Below are positions 6,978-32,995 of a DNA stretch of 64,000 nt, in pieces (within the stretch, counting starts at the first letter, position 1; each line of letters starts with the position of its first letter). The position numbers were made by a program, and so were the translations under genes. A model generated the notes under the pieces. That model searched no databases and was not told the DNA's origin. It saw only the letters and a list, made by a program, of their open reading frames with translations. Origin of the DNA: Amanita rubescens (Eukaryota > Basidiomycota > Agaricomycetes > Agaricales > Amanitaceae); assembly GCA_015039365.1 (NCBI GenBank), contig WION01000180.1:45260-109259 (forward strand), given 5' to 3'.

Positions 6978-9900
6978 ATGAAAACATTAAAACGAGTGAA
7001 AGACAAAGTCAGGCGGCGCCTCAAACTATTCAGTCCCCACTCCTCTCGCCCAGCCTCTCCGCAGAATGCGGGGGCTTCTCCACCCGGTGTGCTACTTCAT
7101 CTCCCGGAGATAGATGAACACTGATAAGGTTAATCAAAGATACCCAGCTGCCAGAGATCAATGATGCGACACCTGGGGATTCTGCACTCAAGCCACCTCC
7201 GAGTCGAGATCTCTCAAATGAGCAAAGTGCGTACATTCCACACTTCCACCAAATCCTCATCTCAAGTTTGAATGGATTATAGCCATCTCAAAAGTGGAGG
7301 AATATCTCTCGCTGGGTTTGAATGGCCTCAAGCTGTTCTTGCGCCATTTCGAACCGTTTTTGGCGGGCACTGTGTTCAAGGCACCCGTCGCTGTCATCAA
7401 TTCCCTAATTGACCTCTCAGAGGTTTGCTCGTCCTCCAAGCTGATTACAGCGATTACTGACGCGGTTTTGTTTCAGGCTATCTCTGATAACAACCGTGCA
7501 ATGAAAGCTCTGATGGTTAAGCTCATCGATCGTGTCAAGGTTATGAGCGAAGCATGTAATGATGCTCAGTCAAGTGAGGCCAAGAAAAGGATAGATGAGT
7601 TCATCGGGTATGGCCTTCCAATCCATTGGTCAACCTGCAGCTAATATATTGTTCAATGATCAGGGTCCTGGTCCACGATTGTAACAAGGTGCAGAAATTA
7701 CGCACAGACCCGAGCTGGAAGAAAGTGCTCACCAACGAGGAAGTAACCAAAAAGATTCAAGGTATCATCCAGGGAATGGATCAGGCGCTAGCAATGTTTC
7801 AGGTATTGTTTCATACTATTAAATTGGTTTTATCATGAACCGTCATTTAGGTCAAGGTTATTTTGAATATTGAGCGAGACATAGGCAGAATTCAGGATGC
7901 CCTTGACGTACGGGTTAAATATTTCACCTTTACTAGCCAAGCTAAGGGGACTTCAGGGAATACGATTAGAATCTTGGCCTCGCATCGATAGAGCGCGATA
8001 CAACGTATCTCTATCACGTTCCGCATGTACACCAGGCACTCGCGTTGACATTCTTCGCCGCATACATGATTGGGCATTAGACCGGTCGTCAAATAGCGCA
8101 CCTATTTATTGGCTGTCTGGAATGGGTGGTACTGGGAAGTCAACCATTGCCTTTACCATTGCAGACATGTTCGACGATGCCAAACAGCAGAAAGATCCAA
8201 GAATACTAGGTGCTACATACTTCTGTTCCCGGCAGGATGGTCAACTGAAGAATTTATTCAATATCATCCCTACTGTATCACGCCAACTCGCTGGCCATGT
8301 ACGCTCCTACGCCGATGCTCTCCTTCATACTAATGTCGACGTCGCCACTGTCGCTGACCTACGACGTCAAATACGAGAGCTATTGGTTAACCCCTGGCAA
8401 GAATCTCTTGAGAAACGCGCCAAGCTTTCAAAGGATTATCTCATAGTAATCGATGCATTGGATGAGTTTGAAAATGAGAAGGGTTCGGAGTTCTTACGAG
8501 GACTGATGGATACCGTTGCGGATGGACATCTTCGAGGTCTCAAATTCCTTGTTACGAGCCGCCCACATCCGCAGATAGCTGAACGTGGGAGGTCACTGCC
8601 CCATAATGCTATTTTTAGGCTGGAGGAGGTTGGTACGCATGAGATGGAAGCGGATATTGGAAAGTTTTTGCGGAGCGAGTTACAGGATTTGAACGACAGT
8701 CAAATCCAAGACATTGTGAAACGGTCGAATGGTCTATTCATCTTTGCCGCAACTGTAGTCAAGTATATTAATAACCCCAGCGGACGGTCACTTCGTGAAA
8801 AACAAAAAGCTTTACAACATCTGCTACGGGACTGGCCAGTTGGGAAAGGACTGGATATCGATGCGCTATACCAGCAGATCTTGGTGTCGGCACTGTCAGA
8901 ACACGATTGCGAGGACCGCAATTATCGTCTCGGAATCCTCCATATCATTTTGTGTGCTGCAGAACCCCTCTCAGCTTCTGATGTTGCAGACCTCTGTAAC
9001 CTCGATATTGAGACCATTCAAAAGCTTCTAGGTTCATTTCATGCTGCACTTTACATATCCCAAAACGACGACCGAATTTACTCGTATCACACAACCTTCC
9101 AAGAGTTTTTCTTCGATGAAAAACGTTCATCCAATGTCAAAGTATCTGGTTCGACCGAATCTCTCAACGTCTTTTGTGATTAGTCATTCATTCATGCATC
9201 CCTGGCCAACCGCTGTTTCCGTACAATGAAAGATCTTCGCTTCAATATTTGCGACCTTCCATCGTCTTTCTTATACGATCATGAGGTTGATGGCCTTGAT
9301 GATCGAATCAAGAAGAAAGTTAATGAGATCCTGTGTTATAGCTCACGACACTGGGGATACCATTTGGCAAAAGCGGAGTCAAAGGACAGTGAAAATGAAT
9401 TACTGCAATTACTCATTGAATTTCTCGACAACAAACTGCTTTTTTGGATTGAGGTGATGAACTTGATTCATTCAAAGGGACAATGCATCCGTCAGCTTCA
9501 GGATGCTATTGGATGGCTACAAAAGGTATGAGATATTCACTGCCAGAGAATACAAATTGTTAACATTGTTCATGTATGGAACTTTAGCATCAGAATGATC
9601 CTGCTCGCATCTCATACCTCAGTGATGCAAAACAATTCATAACAGTTTTCTGTGGAACTGAGATGTCTAAGAGTACACCTCACTTGTACATCTCTTGCCT
9701 GGCGATGCGGCCTCCTGCCAGCCCGATGTCAATGTTATGGAGACCACGGTTTACAAAAATTCCATCAACTCAGATCCGAGGTAATCTCCATAACCTTTTA
9801 ATATCGAAACAAGCTGGTGGCAATATTAACTCTGTTGCATTTTCACCTGATGGTTCACGCATTATTGCTGGGATAGATGATGGGACAGTACAGGTGTGGG

Positions 9901-11871
9901 ATGCAATGAGTGGGGAGGAGTTGAAGAGTCTTTCTGGGCACATGGGCAGGGTCATGTCTGTTGCATTTTCGCCTGATGGCTCTCGCATTGTTTCTTGCTC
10001 ATTTAAGACAATACGAGTGTGGGATGCAACAAGTGGAGAGGAGTCAAAGACTCTTGCTGGACACATGGATATGGTCACATCCATTGCATTTTCACATGAT
10101 GGTTCATGCATTATTTCTGGGTCAGATGACAGGACAGTACGAGTGTGGGATGCAACAAGTGGTGAGGAGTTGAAGAGTCTTGCAGTGGGGCACCCAGTCA
10201 CAACCAGATTTGCATTTTCACCTGATTGCTCACACATTGTTTTTGGGTCAAATGACAAGACAGTGCGAGTGTTGGATGCAAAAAGCAGGGAGGAGAAGAC
10301 TTTTTGTGGGCACACAGACTTGGTCATGTCTGTTGCATTTTCACCACCTGATGGTTCACACATCATTTCAGGGTCAAATGACAAGACAGTACGAGTGTGG
10401 AATGCAGCAACTGGGGAGCAGTTGAAGATTCTTTATGGGCACTTGAACTGGGTCACATCTGTTGCATTTTCACCTGATGGTTCACATATTATTTCTGGGT
10501 CAGTTGACAAGACAGTACAAGTGTGGGATGCAATTAGTGGGGAGCAGTTAAAGAGTCTTTATGGGCACACAGAAGCAGTTTGGTCTGTTGCATTTTCATC
10601 TGATGGTTCACGCATTATTTCTGGGTCAGTTGATGAGACAGTACGAGTATGGGATGCAGTAAGTGGTGGGGAGAGTCTTGCTGGGCATACAGGCCAGATC
10701 ACATCCATTGCATTTTCACCTGATGGTTCACACATTGTTTCTGGGTCAGTTGACAGGACAGTACGAGTGTGGGATGCAACAAATGGGAAGGAGTTGAAGA
10801 CCCTTTCTGGGCACACAAATGTGGTCACATCCATTGGATTCTCACATGATGGTTCACACATTGTTTCTGGGTCACAAGACATGACAGTACGAGTGTGGGA
10901 TGCAACAAGTGGGTTGGTGTTAAAGACCCTTGCTGGGCACATGAGCTCAGTTTTATCTGTTGCATTTTCTTGTGATGACTCACGCATTATTTCTGGATCA
11001 ATGGACAGCACAGTACGAGTGTGGGATGCAATGAGTGGAGAGGAGTTGAAGAGTCTCAAAGGGCACACAGACTGGGTCATGTCTGTTGCATTTTCACCTG
11101 ATGGTTTGCACATTATTTCTGGGTCAGTGGACAAGACAGTACGAGTGTGGGATGCAATAAATGGTGGGGAGAGTCTTGTTGGGCACACAGCTGAAGCCAC
11201 ATCCATTGCATTTTCACCTGATGGCTCACACATTATTGCAGGATTGATGGACAGGACAGTACGAGTGTGGGATGCAATGAGCAGGGAGGAGTTGAAGAGT
11301 CTTTCTGGGCACACAGCCTGGGTCATGTCTGTTGCATTTTCACCTGATGGTTCACACATTATTTCTGGGTCACATGACAAGACAGTACGAGTGTGGGATG
11401 CAACAAGTGGGAAGGAGTTGAAGCTTCTTGCTGGGCACACAGACTTAGTCACATCTGTTGCATTTTCACCTGATGGTTCATGCATCATTTCTGGGTCACA
11501 TGACAAGACAATACGGGTGTGGGATGCAAAAGTATGTGGACAGGAGCTGAAGAACCTTGAAGTTGGGTACATGAACCAAGTGAGTTATTTCATTGGACCT
11601 GTGAACTTTTTTAATTTCCAACCTTATGCAGACTATTTCTGGGATGGAATCACCCCCACATTGGTCACTAATGAATGAAGGTTGGATTGTAAAGAGTGAT
11701 CACACTGACTCAGAAGATAGACTGATGATGGTAACATTCCCACACCATACAGTCTTTGATCCTTGTTCTACACAGACCCTAATTTCCCAAGAAGGCTCAG
11801 CTTCAGTGGACATTTCTGGTTGTACACTTGGTCCTGGTTGGGAGGCTTGTTATACCCCATCTGAACAATGA
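6978..11871 (+). CDS. NACHT-WD40 NLR-like protein, with an in-frame TAG
   Basis: Exons 6978-7086, 7140-7226, 7283-7607, 7664-7802, 7851-7907, 7957-9525, 9588-11579 and 11632-11871 sum to 4518 nt (1505 codons plus stop). Order: a basic, proline-rich leader; a helical N-terminal region (about residues 70-215) resembling HeLo/MLKL-like domains; a NACHT ATPase with P-loop GMGGTGKS and Walker B LIVIDALDEFE; a helical linker; 14 WD40 repeats; and a conserved tail (DGWI-like, SGCTLG, CYTP). Fungal NLRs of this build act in non-self recognition and regulated cell death. A TAG at 9181-9183 lies in frame inside the linker, at a place where relatives carry a conserved FCD...H block. It may be a null allele, be read through, or be removed by a 42-nt GTATCT...TTAG segment (9142-9183). 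Everything else is intact. Confidence 0.88.
9820..11572 (+). repeat. 14 tandem WD40 repeats (about 125 bp units)
   Basis: I count fourteen consecutive units of the form V-x-SVAFSPDGS-x-IISGS-x-D-x-TVRVWDA, each followed by ...GH. Fourteen equals two seven-bladed propellers. The units are so alike in DNA that homogenisation by recombination is likely. The varied positions cluster just before the SVAF strand (for example TDW, LNW, MGR, TEA, TGQ) and around SGS-x-D-x-T, the exposed faces used for recognition in this protein class. A long open frame on the opposite strand is a by-product of this repetition. Confidence 0.9.
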
Positions 11872-15957: not shown

Positions 15958-18420
15958 CTGTGGCAAAATGTGCCACTGATCGTAACGGGCTGCCACAAGC
16001 TCATGAGAAGGCGATTTCATGTGCTTTGCCTGGGGAATTTCATAGGCGATTTCATGTTTTTTCATAGGTGATTTCATTGTTTTGCCTGGGGAATTTCATA
16101 GGCGATTTCATCCTTTTGCCTGGGGAATTTCATAGGCGATTTCATCCTTTTGCCTGGGGAATTTCATAGGCGATTTCATCCTTTTGCCTGGGGAATTTCA
16201 TAGGCGATTTCATCCTTTTGCCAGGGCGATTTCATTGCCGATTTCACTGTTTTGCCAGGGTGATTTCATAGCCGATTTCATTGTTTTGCCTGGGTGATTT
16301 CATAGCCGATTTCATTGGTTTGCCTAGGGAATTTCATTGCCATTTTTGGGCAGTTGCCTTTTTAGGAATACCCATTTGGGGAGATTGCCTATTTAGGAAA
16401 TTGACAATTTGGTAGTTGCCTTTTTAGGAAATAATCAAATATTTGAATAGTTGCCTATTTAGGAAATAGACAACTTGGCAATTGCCTTTTTAGGAAATAA
16501 TCAAATATTTGAATAGTTGCCTATTTAGGACATAATCAAATATTTGAGTAATTGCCTTTTTAGGAAATTCCATTTAGGTAGTTGCCTTTTTAGGAAATAT
16601 TGTGATTTGAGTAATAGCTGATATTTGTAGTGCCAATTTTGACATTCCAAGCTAAATTCATTTTCAGGGTTTAGGGTTTAGGGTTAGAGTTTAGGGTTAG
16701 AGTTTTAGGACATTGTCAGAGCCTGCTGCCAATGGTCAAATAACTCCAATAGCTCCAAGTAACTACCTGAGGAGTGCCAGTGGTGGTCATACAATGTCAA
16801 CTTAAACTACCATTTGACACTGGTGATTCAAGTTGTATGTGGTGAGAGTGATTCAAGTTGTTGTAAATGGTGATTGATAGTGGCATTGAGGTGGTTGGTG
16901 TGTTGAGGCAGCCTACTCTGTGGTTTGAGTGGTTGGTTGTTCAATAAGGTGGTTGTTGACATTGGTCACAGTGGCAACTGGTCATTTGGTGGCAAGCAAA
17001 TTTGTCTTAAGTATGTGTTAATAAATGATCATTGAAGATGGTTGCCATTTGGTGTCAGTGTAATGTGTTGGCATTAGCCATGGTCAGGCAAGAACAGTGG
17101 TAATTTGATTGAAGAGGCCACCATTTGGTGTGGGTGTATGTATTTGCACTGGCCATGGTAAGGTAATCATTGAAAAAGTGCATTGGTTACTAGAGTTGTT
17201 GTTCCCAGTGATTGGGATCATGGTCACAAGTGACAGACAATGGAAGTTGCTGATGATTGGTGGTTGGTGATTGAGGTGGCACTCACATTGTTCAACTTCA
17301 AGTTGGTCAAAGTTGTGAAGGGTTGCGACCAACAATGCCAGCAACTCTAACCAACAGTAAGTAACTCACAACTTCTTCATGCCAAACCATGGCTAGTGAT
17401 ACACCACCTGCAACTAGATACAAAAAAGGTAAACAAAAAGGTTTCCCTTCTACTTTATTTGACCTTCTGTTGGTTGAATGTTTCCAAAAAATGCAATGAC
17501 TCAAATGAACTATTCCCTAAAAAGGCAACTATAAAATCATCTATTTCCTAAGAAGACAACTACCCAATTCAAATTTTATTTCCTAAAAAGGCAAAGGCTC
17601 AAATGAGCTATTTCCTAAAAAGGCAACTACTCAGATTTGATTATTTCCTAAAAAGGCAACCTACTAAATCATTTATTTCCTAAATAGGCTATTGCCCAAA
17701 ATCATCTATTTCCTAAAAAGGCAACTATCAAATCATCTATTTCCTAAATAGGCAACTATTCAAATATTTGATTATTTCCTAAAAAGGCAACTACCAAATT
17801 GTCTATTTCCTAAATAGGCAATCTCCACAAATGGGTATTTCCTAAAAAGGCAACTGCCCAAAAATGGCAATGAAATTCCCTAGGCAAACCAATGAAAATC
17901 GGCTATGAAATTGCCCTGGCAAAAGGATGAAATCGGCAATGAAATCACCCTGGCAAAACAATGAGATAGCCTATGAAATCGCCCTGGCAAAACAATGAGA
18001 TCGCCTATGAAATCGCCCTGGCAAAACAATGAGATCGCCTATGAAATCGCCCTGGCAAAACAATGAGATCGCCTATGAAATCGCCCTGGCAAAACAATGA
18101 GATCGCCTATGAAATCGCCCTGGCAAAACAATGAGATCGCCTATGAAATCGCCCTGGCAAAACAATGAGATCGCCTATGAAATCGCCCTGGCAAAGCAAT
18201 GAGATCGCCTATGAAATCGCCCTGGCAAAGCAATGAAATCGCCTATGAAATTGCCCAGGCAAAGCAATGAAATCGCCTATGAAATCCCCCAGGCAAAGCA
18301 ATGAGATTGCCTCTGAAAAGCAATGAAATCGGCTATGAAATTCCCCAGGCAAAGCACATGAGATCGCCTTCTCATGAGCTTGTGGCAGCCCGTTACGATC
18401 GGTGGCGCATTTTGCCACAG
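15958..18420. mobile_element. Foldback element with long tandem-repeat inverted ends
   Basis: Both ends start (left) or finish as the complement (right) of CTGTGGCAAAATG-GCCAC-GATCG, followed by TAACGGGCTGCCACAAGCTC. The inverted arms, about 0.65 and 0.9 kb, are mostly 34 bp tandem units (TTTGCCTGGGGAATTTCATA plus GGCGATTTCATCC; right arm GCCTATGAAATCGCCCTGGC). Inner arms carry TTGCCTTTTTAGGAAATA units. The 0.9 kb centre has no credible ORF. It lies in the 3' part of the Gypsy element. I could not settle its target duplication. Confidence 0.8.
16664..16713 (+). repeat. Telomere-like TTTAGGG repeats inside the foldback element
   Basis: About 50 bp of TTTAGGGTTTAGGG with TTAGAG variants at the inner end of the left arm. 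It is interstitial and degenerate. Confidence 0.75.
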
Positions 18421-26784: not shown

Positions 26785-29700
26785 TCAGGAGATGAATACA
26801 TGAACAACCAAGGAAATGCATATGAGAAGTAATCTATGTACAAATAAATATGATCTCAATGCAAAGGCAATGCAACCAATAAAATCACCTGGATACCATG
26901 CTATGTGTTTCACCCTGCCATAATTTTTTTCATATGTGGTGCATGACAAGACAAAGTGCATACCATCAATGTGAGCCACCTGCCTATAGAGTAGTGCCAT
27001 AAGATCTTGATGACCAGAGTGGATAGAGTCAGGAGTAATGTGAGTCTTCAGCCTCTGAACATAGCCTCTTTGCTTGTATTGATCCAAGGCTTCTGCAACT
27101 GATGGCAGAAATGGCTTCTTGATCCAAAAGGATAGCTTGGCAATGATAATAATTGCTTGAAAGTTTAAGTATAAATACAGTAAATAAAAAGGAACAATTT
27201 ACAAACTAAGACCTGGCAATCACTAGGCTAGTCACGGTTGCAATGGCATTAGTTGTGCACTCCCCCCACAAAAAAAGGAACAAAAATACCTTGACTGCAA
27301 AGTTCCTTTGCTTGTCTCCAAACATGGAGAAAAGTTCATGCTAGTTATGAGATATGTAGAGTAAAACATCCAATGGATCATCAGACCTACAAACTAGCAT
27401 GCAAACCTTATGAAAATTAATACCTCATAAACCTGCATCACTCACCTAGAAATCAAGGAAAGTGATATAAGTGAGACATGAGGTGTTAATGTGTGTGATG
27501 AAATGAAATCTTACAATCTATGATGATAATAATGTAAAAGGAAGACATGGAAAGGATATGGCAACATACTCACTTTCTGATGTACATAGGATGCAATGAT
27601 TTATCAAACATACATGAATTGAGGTGTGTTGAGAATGCATGTTGGAAAATTTGTGATGTCACTCACTTCCTGTTGGTGATAGGAGAAGATGTGATTAGAC
27701 TGCCTTTCACAAAATGTGCAATGTCACTCACAAGCTGTTGGTCATTGGAAGATACATATATGATGAGACTGCTTTTTGCAATGTCACTCACAAGCTGTTG
27801 GTCATAGGAAAAGACTGCCTTTGACAAAATGTGCAATGTCACTCACTTCCTGTTGATCATACATAGGAAAAGATGTGATGAGACTGCCTTTTACAAAATA
27901 TGCAATGTCACTGACAAGCTGTTGGTCATAGGAAAAGTTGTGATGAGAGTACCTTTCACAAAATGTGCAATGTTACTCACGTGCTGTTGGTCATATATGG
28001 TGAGACTGCATCTCACAAAATGTCCAATGTCACTTACAAGCTATTCATCATAGGAAAAATGTGATGATGGACTGCCTTTCAAAAATGCACTCACTCCCTG
28101 TTGACCATGAGAAAAGACTGCCTTTCACAAAATGTGCAATGTCTCACAAGCTGTTGATCATAGGAAAAATGTGATGATGGGCTGCCTTTCAAAAATGCAC
28201 TCACTCGCTGTTGGTCATAAGAAAAGATGTGATGAGACTGCTTTTCACAAAATGCATAATGTCACTCACTTCCTGTTAATCATAGGAAAAGATGTGATGA
28301 CACTGCCTTTCACAAAATGTGCAATGTCACTCACTTTCTGTTGGTCATAGGAAAAGAGTGATGAGACTGCCTTACACGAAATGTGCAATGTAACTCACAA
28401 CCTGTTAGTCATAGGAAAAGATGTGACAAGATTGCCTTTCTCAAATGTGCAATGTCACTCACAAGCTGAAGTTGGTCATAGGAAAAGATATGATGTGATG
28501 GCCTTTTGCAAAATGTGCATCACAGTCACTCACTTGCTGTTGACCGATGTGATGAGACTGCCTTTTGCAAATGTGCAATGTCACTCACTTGCTGTTGGTC
28601 ATAGGAAAGATGTGATGAGACTGCCTTACACAAAATGTGCTTGAATGTCACTCACAACCTGTTCAAGGCAGGAAAAGATGTGACAAGACAAAATCTGCAA
28701 TATCACTCACTTCCTGTTGGTCATAGGAAAAGTTGGATGAGATTGCCTTGCACAAAATGTGCAATGTCACTCACAAACTGTTGGTAATAGGAAATAAATG
28801 TGATGAGACTGCCTTTCACAAAATGTGCAATGTCACTCACAAACTGTTGGTCATAGGAAAAGGATGTGATGAGACTGCCTTTCACAAAATGTGCAATATC
28901 ACTCACAAGCTATTGGTCATAGGAAAAGATGTGATAAGTCTGCGCTTCACAAGATGTGCAACATCACTGACAAGCTGTTCAATGGTCATAGGATGAGAGT
29001 CATGAGACTGCCTTTCACAAAATGTGCAATGTTGCCTCACTCTCTGTTGGCCATAGGAAAAGATGTGATCAGTGAGACTGCATTTCACAAAATGTGCAAT
29101 GTGACTCACAAACTGTTGGTTATTGGAAAAGATGCAATGAGACTCAGACTCCTCCCTTTCACAAAATGTGTAATGTCACTCACTTGCTGTTGGTCATAGC
29201 AAAAGATATGACAGTAAGACTGCCTTTCACAAAATGTGCAATGTCACCCACAAGCTGTTGGTCATAGGAAAGGATGCAATAAGACTGCCTTTCACAAAAA
29301 GTCCAATATCACTGACAAGCTGAAGTTGGTCATAGGAAAAGATGTGATGAGACTGCCTTTCACAAAATGTGTGGCAATGGCACTCACTTGCTGTTGGTCA
29401 TAGGAAAAGATGTGATGAGACTGCCATTCACAACATGTGCAATATCACTTGCCTGCTGTTGGTCATGGGAAAAGATGTAATGAGACTGCTTTTCACAAAA
29501 TGCATGTCACTCACTTTCTGTTAATCATAGGAAAAGATGTGATGAGACTGCCTTTCACAAAATGTGCAATGTCACTCACTTGCTGGTGGTCATAGGAAAA
29601 AGGTGATGAGACTGCCTTTCATAAAATGTGCAATGTCACTCACTTGCTGTGGGTTGTAGGAAAAGATGTGATGAGACTGCCTTTCACAAAAAGTGCTGTT

Positions 29701-31528
29701 GTATTACTCACTCCCTGTCCACAAGAGACTAGATTGGAAAGCCCAGTTACAATGATAGATTAACTCACTTGCTGTTGGTCATATGATGCACCATGGGATA
29801 ATTTACCAAAATCACAATTGAGAGATATCACTGACTTCCTGTAGATTATGGGACAAGACAACTAATCACAAAAGGAAGTATTACTCACAAGCTGTTGTCA
29901 TGAGACAATATATCAGATCTATGCTAGCCCAATCTCACTTACCCACTGATATATGAAAATCAGATCCTGCCAACAAGAATATGATGACAACTAACCTGTG
30001 TTTCACTCAGTTGTTTAATGGCCATCTGAAGCATGACTAATCTGGTTTCATGCAAAGACATTGGAGTATTATTACCTCCTGATGAACTTTTTGAAGGCAT
30101 TTATCATTCAATATGAAGGTCACCTACCTCTCTGTCCACCTGTTGACAATTTTCCTATAGTACCTATACATATGTGCAGTTTGACAAATTGCATACCCAG
30201 AAATGTGGAAATTTTGAAAGGACTATGAGAATGACATCATCCCATGTCCAATGTTTATATTTCAGAACATGTCTGAAAAATGTCAATGTTAGTAAGTGAT
30301 ATTTGGAATGTAACCCTCACTGAAGTGCAGATTTAACTGAAATGTCCAGATTATTCATCTGTGTTGAAATAAACAACTGATGCATGCTGTCATCATCTAT
30401 TGCATCAGCAGTTTGCTGAGTAAGTTCAGCACAATTCTTCTCTGGTAAATCCATGTCTATGAAACAACATTACTCCCATTTTTCAGGAAGAAATCCTCAT
30501 CATTCTCACCTTCCAATTGCACATATGCCTTGGGAGGATATTTGGCATCCAAAATTTTAGGAAGATAAACCTTCTGAAAAGTGATTTGAGCAATTTCCCT
30601 GGCTCTCTCCCACTTATCTTCATTCTTTGCATCAGTCAAGTTGGCAAATTCAATGTTTATTTGACCATCAAATTTGGTGAATATAACCACCAAAGGAACT
30701 GTAAGGGAAATATTTACTAATCAGTACACTGTTGATTACTTAGTTGATTTTGTGGCAATTTAGCCATTGGAAAGGAGGTGACAATAATCTCTCCAAACCC
30801 AACAAGATGGTACACAAATTCATTAGGACTTACCTCTGCCTGTCCCTTTATTGAAGAATTCAAGCTCTGCAGATAGAATGGGACGAGGGCTATCCATGGG
30901 TATACAGTACCTAGAGGAAGCCAGGTCAGCCAGTACTGTAAAGGGATAGAGCAAGATACCAAATGGCATGCAGCTGGTTTTTCGGCTCAGTTTCTGCAGA
31001 TTTCTTTTCAATGAACCTCCAAGCAATCTCCAATTCCTCAATTGAACCAGCTTCAAAACCCAGAGAGTCATGGAAGATAAAGTTACTTCCAGGATATGTA
31101 ATTTGATGCTCAATGTCATGCAGGTCTTTCTGTTATCATTGCATGTGAATGGGTACATTCAACATCATTATCTGACTCACCCCAATTGACGGTATCAAAT
31201 GAATCACAGAGCGTTCAAGCTGATTACCTGCAAGAAACACAACAGTCAAAGGGAGCACAAGACTTAGACTGACTTACCATCCTTGCTATATATGATAGGC
31301 TTTATCCCCTTTGCCACCCCACAAACCTTCTCAAGGATGGTGGTCTTGCCTGCATTAGCCCTCCCAATGACAAGGATGCGAAAGTGTGGGCATAGATAGT
31401 GTTCCCTGAGCATTTGAACATGTGGTGCCTCATCTGGATCTGATATGTGTCAGTCAAGGATTACTGATGTGACTGAGATGCTAAATTAGCCTACTCAAAG
31501 AAGGTGCAGTTGTCAGTGTAGCTGCCAT
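26785..31528 (-). CDS. P-loop GTPase-like protein gene with an array of single-codon microexons
   Basis: From ATG 31526-31528, exons 31495-31528, 31278-31439, 31181-31227, 30960-31129, 30834-30910, 30510-30698, 30321-30456 and 30197-30272 join to 891 nt in frame. Each junction phase matches. They encode an AIG1/dynamin-like fungal G domain: G1 GRANAGKTT, G3 HDSLGFEAG, G4 TKFD, then FISTQMNNLD and KFPHFW. Next come 30128-30139 (VDRE), 30076-30078 (GAG), 29996-30025 (MAIKQLSETQ), 29943-29945 (TGG) and 37 three-base exon candidates (29891 to 27574). After them come ATT (27515-27517), TTT (27391-27393), 27290-27340 (HELFSMFGDKQRNFAVK) and 26980-27135 (LSFWIKKPFLPSVAEALDQY...). All later exons are phase 0. 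The end is uncertain: reading through from 26980 reaches a stop at 26785. The family is common in mushroom genomes, and its substrate is unknown. Splicing of the microexons is inferred, not shown. Confidence 0.75.
27574..29930 (-). repeat. Tandem array of about 37 intron-like units with a variable triplet
   Basis: On the minus strand each 50-70 bp unit reads GTGAGTGACATTGCACATTT, then TGTGAAAGGCAGTCTCATCA, then CATCTTTTCCTATGACCAACAG in two overlapping pieces, with small changes. Between the CAG end of one unit and the GTGAGT start of the next stand exactly three bases. Reading 5' to 3', the triplets are CTT (11 times), CAA (7), GAA (5), TTT (3), AAA (3), GGA (2), GTT (2), CAG, AGA, CGA and CAC. 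None is a stop. Donors vary only in ways still seen in real introns (GTCAGT, GTAAGT, GTGGGT, GCAAGT). Confidence 0.85.
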
Positions 31529-32995
31529 GATTGATGTTGTGCTAGAATTGGCACAATTAGATGGTTTGATGAGAGTGGTGTAAAGGAAATGCCTGCTTCC
31601 AGAGAAAAGTACCCCAAAGATGATGGGAAACAATACAATAGCTGATGTGTGAATCACTGGCAAGAACAGTTGTGTACAGTGTACTGGACTTGACAGTCTT
31701 GAGAGTCAGGTGACAGATGATGTGTCTGGACTCAGGATTAAGAAATCAGCAGGTAACAGTGAGTTCAATGATGTGGCTTGACCTACTGGCACGTGAAACG
31801 TGGATGGTGGTCGAGATCAAAGATAACTTGAACGCGTGATCGGCCAGGCACTTACTCATCACTCAATCTCTCACGAACAGCCCAGCATAGTAGCCTGCGA
31901 AGTTTATATTGGACCCGTGACCGATTGACGACGTGAGACGGAATCGGCTTCTGCGAATGCATCAGCAAAACGTCATTGTCGACTTTCGCAACTTTGACTT
32001 TCAGGTTACCACTTTTCTATACTTTCACTTTCCGGGTCAGCACTTAGCAGCACTTTGACTTTTAGACATAGCACTTGGAGGACTTTCATAACTTTCGGAA
32101 ATGTATGTAGCAAGACTCGAGTTCAGATATGAGCAGTAAAATAAAATTTTGAGAGGTTGAGCTCAATTCGGACTCGGCAGCGTGGGGAAGATGGTGTTCC
32201 ACCATCGGAAAAAAGTGGGATGGGTAGCATGTTGGCGTTATGGATAATGCATCTCCAGCGCGTTGTTCAGCTGTAGAGAAAAATATTACAAATATGATAC
32301 CACCTCACCATATAGATGCTTCATGCGCGATCCGAGCTTATCGATGGCGATTTTCTTCTGATAGCTGGGCTGAGATTCCGGGTTTCACCCATTCTGGCTG
32401 GCACAACTTTGAAGAAGCAATTGTGAACAAGACGTCAAATTAATCATATAATTGGCTACTAGCCGATGGAATTCGCGCTGGACGACGCATATGGCAAGGA
32501 AAAGGTCTGATGGCGTGTTTTGGGGTGATTCGGAACTGGAGATTGGTGCCCTCAAGTCGAAAGATCGAAAGTCCTTGTTTGAGATCCCTGCTAGTATTGT
32601 GTCTGGGATGAATACTAGATACGACTTCTCCGGCAGCGTGTTGTTGCAGGATGCGAGTGTCGGTGCGGGGGGTAGTGTTGGGGCCCAATAGCGCGTGGAG
32701 CGCTGATACGCCAGCTATGATGCTCCCCATTCTATCAAGAAACGTTCATGAAATTGTGCTTGAATAAAGCCAGAACGACGCACCTTTCTCGATTACGTCT
32801 CAAATGCGCAGCAGCCCATCCAAATCGGCACGCACTCCGAAAATATTTTTCTTTGCATTTTTCACTGCATTTGGGAGTTATGTCGACAGTGTGTGCGTTG
32901 CATTGGACTTGACGAATTTCCGAGAGCCATGCAAACAATGTCAAACAGATAAACATCATCACCGTTGGTCACCGGTCACCGGTCACCCTCTCAAT
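31529..32995. other. Intergenic region, nothing recognised
   Basis: Short open frames occur on both strands (for example around 32240-32690) but none has a recognisable motif, splice pattern or codon character. The last 1.2 kb has higher GC content than the microexon gene. It may hold the promoter of that gene. Confidence 0.4.

Follow-up and report, generated by a model that had tools for sequence, protein, structure and literature searches.

Very short exons are known from several systems. At recursive splice sites, an acceptor lies directly beside a donor, and no residues are added. The micro-exon genes (MEGs) of Schistosoma carry many tiny exons, mostly multiples of three, and are hard to annotate automatically; the available portions of that paper give 10 to 20 short exons per gene, introns of 0.1 to 5 kb, and exons mostly of 15 bp, with a minimum of 6 bp in the text and a range of 3 to 81 in the abstract (PMC10526429). 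Fungi also have isolated 3-nt exons: each lipS copy of a Dactylellina contains two, and the lipS passage reports neither repetition nor variability (PMC5639578). Here, we analyze a 64,000-nt stretch of the Amanita rubescens genome (assembly GCA_015039365.1, contig WION01000180.1, positions 45,260 to 109,259 of the forward strand), called the window below, whose minus strand holds a GTPase-type gene in which 41 of 55 exons are exactly 3 nt long. As far as the available portions describe the schistosome MEGs, the gene shares with them many very short exons in multiples of three; unlike them, it has tens of exactly-3-nt exons, near-identical introns of ~62 nt, and a GTPase domain. Tens of 3-nt exons in a row also set it apart from the two per lipS gene given in the passage on that gene. 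The WD repeat of the fungal HNWD proteins is about 42 residues long. According to the accessible parts of PMC2873952, the HNWD or high-internal-conservation WD40 repeats of fungal NLRs are homogenized units with hypervariable codons, a combination that recurs here; unlike the HNWD unit, which is a coding WD repeat, the homogenized part here is intron and the variable part a whole one-codon exon. Among the open-access (PMC) papers listed in searches, none described arrays of codon-sized exons or this Amanita family; an earlier reading of the sequence alone (the original prediction) knew of no described fungal gene so built. We rate the single-codon exon array as categorically new as a gene architecture. 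The array is very probably coding, a loop of ~40 residues built codon by codon, with introns homogenized and codons diversified into an evolvable cassette.

The minus-strand gene (31528–26910) splices into an open frame from ATG to stop, with 442 aa ending in IDG*. Nine exons from 31528 to 30128 join into an open GTPase-type frame containing GRANAGKTT, DSLGFE, and TKFD; the original prediction had placed an intact GTPase-domain gene there. They are followed by a GAG exon, a 30-nt exon, 40 triplets, and then exons of 51, 25, 192, and 5 nt. The 41 three-nt exons, all in phase 0, contribute only 123 nt of the coding sequence. A chain search permitting introns of 40 to 110 nt returned a chain of 39 exons when the exon length was 3 and at most 2 when it was 1, 2, or 4 to 8; on 200 dinucleotide-preserving shuffles, it also reached at most 2. 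Because the shuffles and the seven other exon lengths reach at most 2, the 39-exon chain cannot be chance, and the exact three-base spacing of the intron units in the original prediction is borne out. At 27576, the tie-break of the program chose TGA 4 nt further, where the plain reading is AAA. Donors in the window array are GT, with one GC preceded by CAG (CAG|GCAAGT, 29455–29453), and acceptors are AG. The GC donor and a few GTCAGT donors are corrections to the original prediction, which gave mostly GTGAGT; the introns between the triplets measure 50–90 nt, plus one of 121 nt. Separately, the window array was tried as one continuous reading frame and this was rejected, open stretches reaching at most 108 codons across the six frames. 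An Rfam scan of 26900–31600 for known structured RNA gave 0 matches at the gathering score, and the array unit found no match in viral contigs.

Proteins of relatives (numbered P0001 onward) provide transcript-like evidence that the triplets are spliced in. P0001, P0008, and P0160 derive from JGI contigs of 1446, 1903, and 2135 nt, respectively, which are open across many exon joints and are presumably cDNA. P0001 (386 aa) runs from the GTPase into WFEKGKKESDREIEY; 41 variable residues come next, and then RI and VRFHF.... Compared with 15 consecutive single-codon exons of the paralogous locus L041 (WFEQGKKETDREIKY), its WFEKGKKESDREIEY is identical at 12 of 15 positions without a gap, and P0008 matches the same exons at 10 of 15, again without a gap, the best match to this block elsewhere in P0001 and P0008 being 4 and 5 of 15. 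P0008 has the full 15-residue block, then WFEHGKKDTDKQIVY and a variable stretch. At the other end, P0160 reads ...LKIC joined to DELFSMFGDGQRNFAVK (DELFSMFG...), PTDCQVLVS, and IIIIAKLSFW, a join that matches the predicted AAA ATT (followed by TGT as in locus L044, TTT in the window) plus tail exons. Since P0001 and P0008 hold the start of the array and P0160 its end, with the array-encoded residues in order, these relatives splice array codons in. P0021, P0029, P0030, P0041, P0095, P0104, and P0140 carry a stretch that varies in sequence and length at the array position; between P0029 and P0030, the N-terminal part is identical at 302 of 321 and the C-terminal part at 85 of 90 positions, and the variable stretches, 50 and 33 residues long, agree at 13 of 31 aligned. 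All relatives bearing an organism name are fungal, among the matches listed (120 of 827, and 117 in a second search).

What the original prediction chiefly lacked is that the gene belongs to a multicopy family whose codons are hypervariable inside near-identical introns. A. rubescens is an ectomycorrhizal mushroom, and its assembly of 75.7 Mb in 786 contigs was searched for further copies. A query of 281 bases of the array gave 406 matches (40 of 241 candidates scored), and those listed fall in 27 places including the window. The C-terminal exon gave 150 matches (150 of 220 candidates scored), with no internal stop among those listed; many form groups of two or three that score the same on separate contigs, and since such rows include haplotypes or recent duplicates, the number of distinct genes is below 150. 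We retrieved 20 further loci of up to 9.9 kb (L031–L050) and two of 1.5 kb (L051 and L052). Under a strict junction pattern that allows gaps of at most 220 nt, all 20 contain chains of 22 to 80 triplets. Most of them have exactly 65 nt as their commonest unit, with introns mostly near-identical at 62 nt; the window copy, whose introns measure 50–90 nt (one of 121 nt), is a diverged member. The GTPase exons are open in 16 of the 20 sequences with a match; L048 has no GTPase match, L036 is one base over, and L045, L047, and L050 are broken as read. L032, L033, and L040 share nearly the same array (79, 56, and 80 triplets in the strict scan), L033 running to its contig end, and may be recent duplicates or two nuclear haplotypes. 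By eye, L051 (C168:142500-144000) is a shortened copy with the single-codon exons GCA GAC CAT ATT before the C-terminal exons.

The triplets of these loci bear a coding signature. Among ungapped consecutive 62-nt introns, 560 pairs lie exactly 3 nt apart, the next commonest distances being 2 nt (15) and 4 nt (10), as when indels within an intron shift the ungapped match. None of those 560 triplets is a stop, against 31 expected from column frequencies with the columns taken as independent, and none ends in AG, against 3.6 expected; a larger set of units holds 2 stops in 657 triplets, both TGA. A or T occupies the third position in 516 of the 560, and just 22 of them begin with A. The leading block WFEQGKKETDREIKY, whose 15 codons occupy one exon each, offers the strongest test of long-standing constraint: it has changed little across 18 loci despite varying intron length. 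Its introns measure 45–71 nt and are GT..AG in 286 of 288. This alignment covers 18 of 21 sequences, the window gene, L044, and L048 not being alignable throughout, and its exceptions are one codon lost in one locus and three cells in which GAA is fused with the next four bases, taken as an alignment artifact. The distant paralog L052 adjoins, upstream, a C-terminal exon that is only 50% identical. Its chain numbers 19 exons, each 3, 6, or 9 nt long, where shuffles reach at most 4, and its intron cores are as unlike one another as shuffled ones (0.549 versus 0.540); the program gave one of the 19 exons as TGA, with CCAGCA as the alternative reading. Together, the proteins of relatives, the multiples of three in L052, the scarcity of stops, and the 15 leading codons kept in 18 paralogs support for the family the codon-by-codon splicing that had been deduced from the window alone; for the window locus itself, such splicing is probable.

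Codons and introns of the arrays diverge very differently. Intron columns are off consensus by 3% on average, and the triplet columns have entropies of 1.6, 1.7, and 1.3 bits. In unit pairs with identical introns, the triplet differs in 3626 of 4450. Over all 12,478 within-array pairs, triplets differ in 0.849 and intron 3-mers in 0.02 to 0.20, a contrast that is partly favored by the choice of units for likeness to the intron consensus, which lowers intron divergence, and that comes from pairs that are not independent. The comparison of young duplicates is free of this bias, as it does not depend on that choice. Between L039 and L041, 4 of 111 codon bases (2 of 37 codons) and 2 of 2329 intron bases have changed; between L037 and L039, the counts are 5 of 108 (3 of 36 codons) and 3 of 2332. 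Pooled, these give 9 of 219 codon bases (5 of 73 codons) versus 5 of 4661 intron bases (Fisher 1e-9 if bases are independent). One change between young duplicates replaces a whole codon, CGA to ATC, with the neighboring introns unchanged. We read the contrast as what unit exchange plus selection for different codons would leave in the sequences. In the GTPase exons, the median ratio of nonsynonymous to synonymous substitution rates (dN/dS) is 0.43 over 98 of 120 pairs, with L036, L045, L047, and L050 left out along with the 22 pairs whose dS fell outside 0.05–2; these exons look to be under purifying selection.

Several observations speak against a spliced and selected array. The transcript-like evidence comes from relatives, and none is of the window locus itself. 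The frames of P0008 and P0160 leave some of their contigs uncovered, where unspliced parts may exist. P0001 ends in an apparent retained last intron, its VRFHF... being the last-intron translation in L048, L041, and others, and immediately ahead of the leading block it lacks one residue; over its final ~20 residues, P0008 looks like a trailing intron of the window gene read in a shifted frame. The annotated A. rubescens protein P0064 (407 aa) passes from FPHYWVMMKQ directly into LFALFTLFGG without a variable stretch, which may reflect a gene-model error, a skipped array, or a paralog without one. A protein search with residues 293–447 alone gave 0 matches at E ≤ 0.001 among 249 candidates, and the window array lacks the KKETDREIKY block kept by 18 paralogs. 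Finally, synonymous steps make up 27 of 213, compared with 23.5% expected, a depletion so modest that selection and local hypermutation are not cleanly separated.

If the triplets were unexpressed, the array could be a minisatellite inside one large intron, with GT and AG as part of its repeat unit; Tandem Repeats Finder does call a 65-bp tandem repeat, and P0064 lacks the variable stretch. This is very improbable, however, because L052 keeps its 3-, 6-, and 9-nt exons amid unrelated introns, so that no repeat unit exists there, stops are almost absent, the triplets vary while the rest of the unit does not, and array residues occur in P0001, P0008, and P0160; a unit devoid of coding constraint is not what was found. 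It is just as hard to credit that the array is an untranslated remnant, lying either beyond the end of the gene or in a dead copy of it. Of the four annotated A. rubescens proteins read, P0002, P0003, and P0015 do stop before the array (the fourth is P0064), L045, L047, and L050 are broken as read, and L051 is truncated, yet the frame of the window gene is uninterrupted between its ATG and its stop, the many C-terminal exon matches listed hold no internal stop, and P0160 joins the array end to C-terminal exons.

Other explanations accept that the codons are spliced in and differ on how they arose. Their diversity may come from a local mutator or short conversion tracts and not from selection, as the modest skew between synonymous and nonsynonymous steps would allow, and as the CGA to ATC replacement suggests by looking like exchange and not point mutation. 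We regard this as rather unlikely, since the leading single-codon exons WFEQGKKETDREIKY stay conserved, which means that being such an exon does not itself cause change, and since stops would have to be purged. In an introner-like origin, an older variable loop would have received copies of one element at one codon after another, instead of units being duplicated with their codon. Identical introns beside unrelated codons, and the variable stretch at the same place in distant relatives, fit such insertion; close paralogs such as L032 and L040, however, differ by whole units, and L052 and the leading block have old, unrelated introns already at single-codon spacing. We also know of no mechanism for insertion at every codon border, and we consider this origin improbable.

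In the preferred explanation, a coding array with homogenized introns, each unit's ~62 nt would form a normal GT-AG intron, and every triplet separating two introns would be a one-codon exon. Splicing would take out the introns singly by intron definition, the natural mode for introns of about 62 nt, and the ~40 residues between the GTPase domain and the C-terminal helical domain would be assembled codon by codon. With an acceptor and the next donor 3 nt apart, neighbors can hardly be assembled at once, and stepwise removal is thus expected. Duplication and exchange within and between loci, presumably by recombination, would homogenize the introns, and diversifying selection would keep the codons different, making the array an evolvable cassette for a hypervariable loop. 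Because every exon is 3 nt in phase 0, the frame is kept on gain, loss, exchange, or skipping of units; since donors and acceptors are nearly alike in homogeneous arrays, skipping is likely and would always be in frame. It is possible, although we put this forward only tentatively, that the array is a dedicated diversity generator in which identical introns let recombination swap, add, or drop codons in frame among dozens of paralogs, with possible somatic codon skipping, to give an expandable repertoire of GTPase loops recognizing self, partners, or parasites. Exons down to one codon, tens of them consecutively, put the spliceosome to the test at acceptors and donors three bases apart. They also suggest that introns may serve as a homologous spacer for codon-level shuffling, making exon shuffling of single amino acids testable. 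Databases may miss such loops, since of the four annotated proteins read, one lacks the array and the other three end ahead of it.

The product of the gene is predicted to be a GTPase with a hypervariable loop. We take GRANAGKTT, DS.GFE, and TKFD to be its P-loop and G motifs, of the kind looked for in TRAFAC-type GTPases. PF01926 matches P0029 weakly (E 0.0013, 19.3 bits, below the cut-off of 21.9), precomputed PF01926 (MMR_HSR1-like) matches exist on some relatives, and Foldseek gave weak matches only, to septins, dynamin-like proteins, and Irga6. A Pfam scan of P0029, P0001, P0160, and P0104 (E up to 1) found no NACHT or WD40. In AlphaFold models of P0029 and P0001 (mean predicted local distance difference test [pLDDT] 69.8 and 65.0), the variable stretch shows no secondary structure and stays below a pLDDT of 50, and the leading codons form a low-confidence helix in both. 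In P0029, the stretch precedes well-predicted C-terminal helices; P0001 lacks the C-terminal part. The original prediction of a Leu/Gln/Glu-rich helix was right on composition, but the helix is not supported, as the models leave the stretch unstructured and the helical moment of the 40-residue window string was reached by 644 of 2000 permutations. An amphipathic helix at 100 degrees was likewise rejected, none of the seven strings tested from 21 arrays having a significant moment. At 170 degrees, just 36 of 2000 permutations attained the moment of L046, a low number not seen for the other six strings. A role of the loop in recognition may be guessed at because the family, with its expansion, its hypervariable codons, and its concerted spacers, resembles fungal allorecognition NLRs, as presented in the accessible parts of PMC12222747 and PMC2873952. 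If the loop is a recognition surface, the array would represent a novel route by which a fungus generates diversity.

The individual exons, all on the minus strand, are as follows. The GTPase part, placed by its open spliced frame, comprises exon 1, beginning with ATG (31495..31528), exon 2 with the P-loop GRANAGKTT (31278..31439), exon 3 (31181..31227), exon 4 with DSLGFE (30960..31129), exon 5 (30834..30910), exon 6 with TKFD (30510..30698), exon 7 (30321..30456), and exon 8, ending ...FPHFW (30197..30272). A 12-nt exon encoding VDRE (30128..30139) has VGRD in P0008 and VDRA in P0001 at the same place. The single-codon exon GAG (30076..30078) corresponds to GTG in 11, GAG in 6, and AAG in 1 of 18 paralogs and to E in P0008; P0001 is a residue short in that stretch. 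The 30-nt exon MAIKQLSETQ (29996..30025; MANKQLSEAQ in P0008, (V)TNEQLSETK in P0001) lies between GAG and TGG and had been missed; the 41 three-base exons are GAG plus 40 others. The 40 single-codon exons (27391..29945), from TGG (29945–29943) to TTT (27393–27391), encode WLEQGQQKQQLLQFRLLFFEVQQLVKERLGLHLELLEKIF and read, in order, TGG CTT GAA CAA GGA CAA CAA AAA CAG CAA, then CTT CTT CAA TTT AGA CTT CTT TTT TTT GAA, then GTT CAA CAA CTT GTT AAA GAA CGA CTT GGA, and then CTT CAC CTT GAA CTT CTT GAA AAA ATT TTT. Downstream, the 51-nt exon HELFSMFGDKQRNFAVK (27290..27340) was correctly placed, and P0160 links a like exon to the array end. As a further correction, the TTT near 27205 is the end of a 25-nt exon, PSDCQVLV(S) (27203..27227), as shown by PTDCQVLVS in P0160. 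The C-terminal exon, (S)IIIIAKLSFW...AHID, placed by P0160, spans 26964..27155 (192 nt) in place of the 156 nt first assigned to 26980–27135. The final coding bases with the TGA stop, GGTGA (...IDG*), lie at 26910..26914, and P0160 ends in HIDG.

Before the HELF exon, a candidate zero-length exon (TAG|GTGAGT, 27445..27446) would split the 121-nt intron into 69 and 52 nt. In this it resembles a recursive splice site; each array junction, in contrast, adds one codon. AG directly before GTGAGT occurs likewise in L048 and L051 by scan and in L052 by eye, and the scan, which needs the next exon and may miss some, found none in the other 18 retrieved loci.

Elsewhere in the window, the plus strand at 7897–11678 holds an open reading frame with the look of a NACHT-like P-loop NTPase, followed by one of many near-identical WD40 repeats with a 126-bp period; assuming these domain names to be right, we read the pair as an NLR of the high-internal-conservation type. 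At 16009–18340, oppositely oriented 34-bp repeats (16060–16337 and 17870–18318) stand around AT-rich repeats of ~31–35 bp, and the whole looks like a fold-back or terminal-repeat element.

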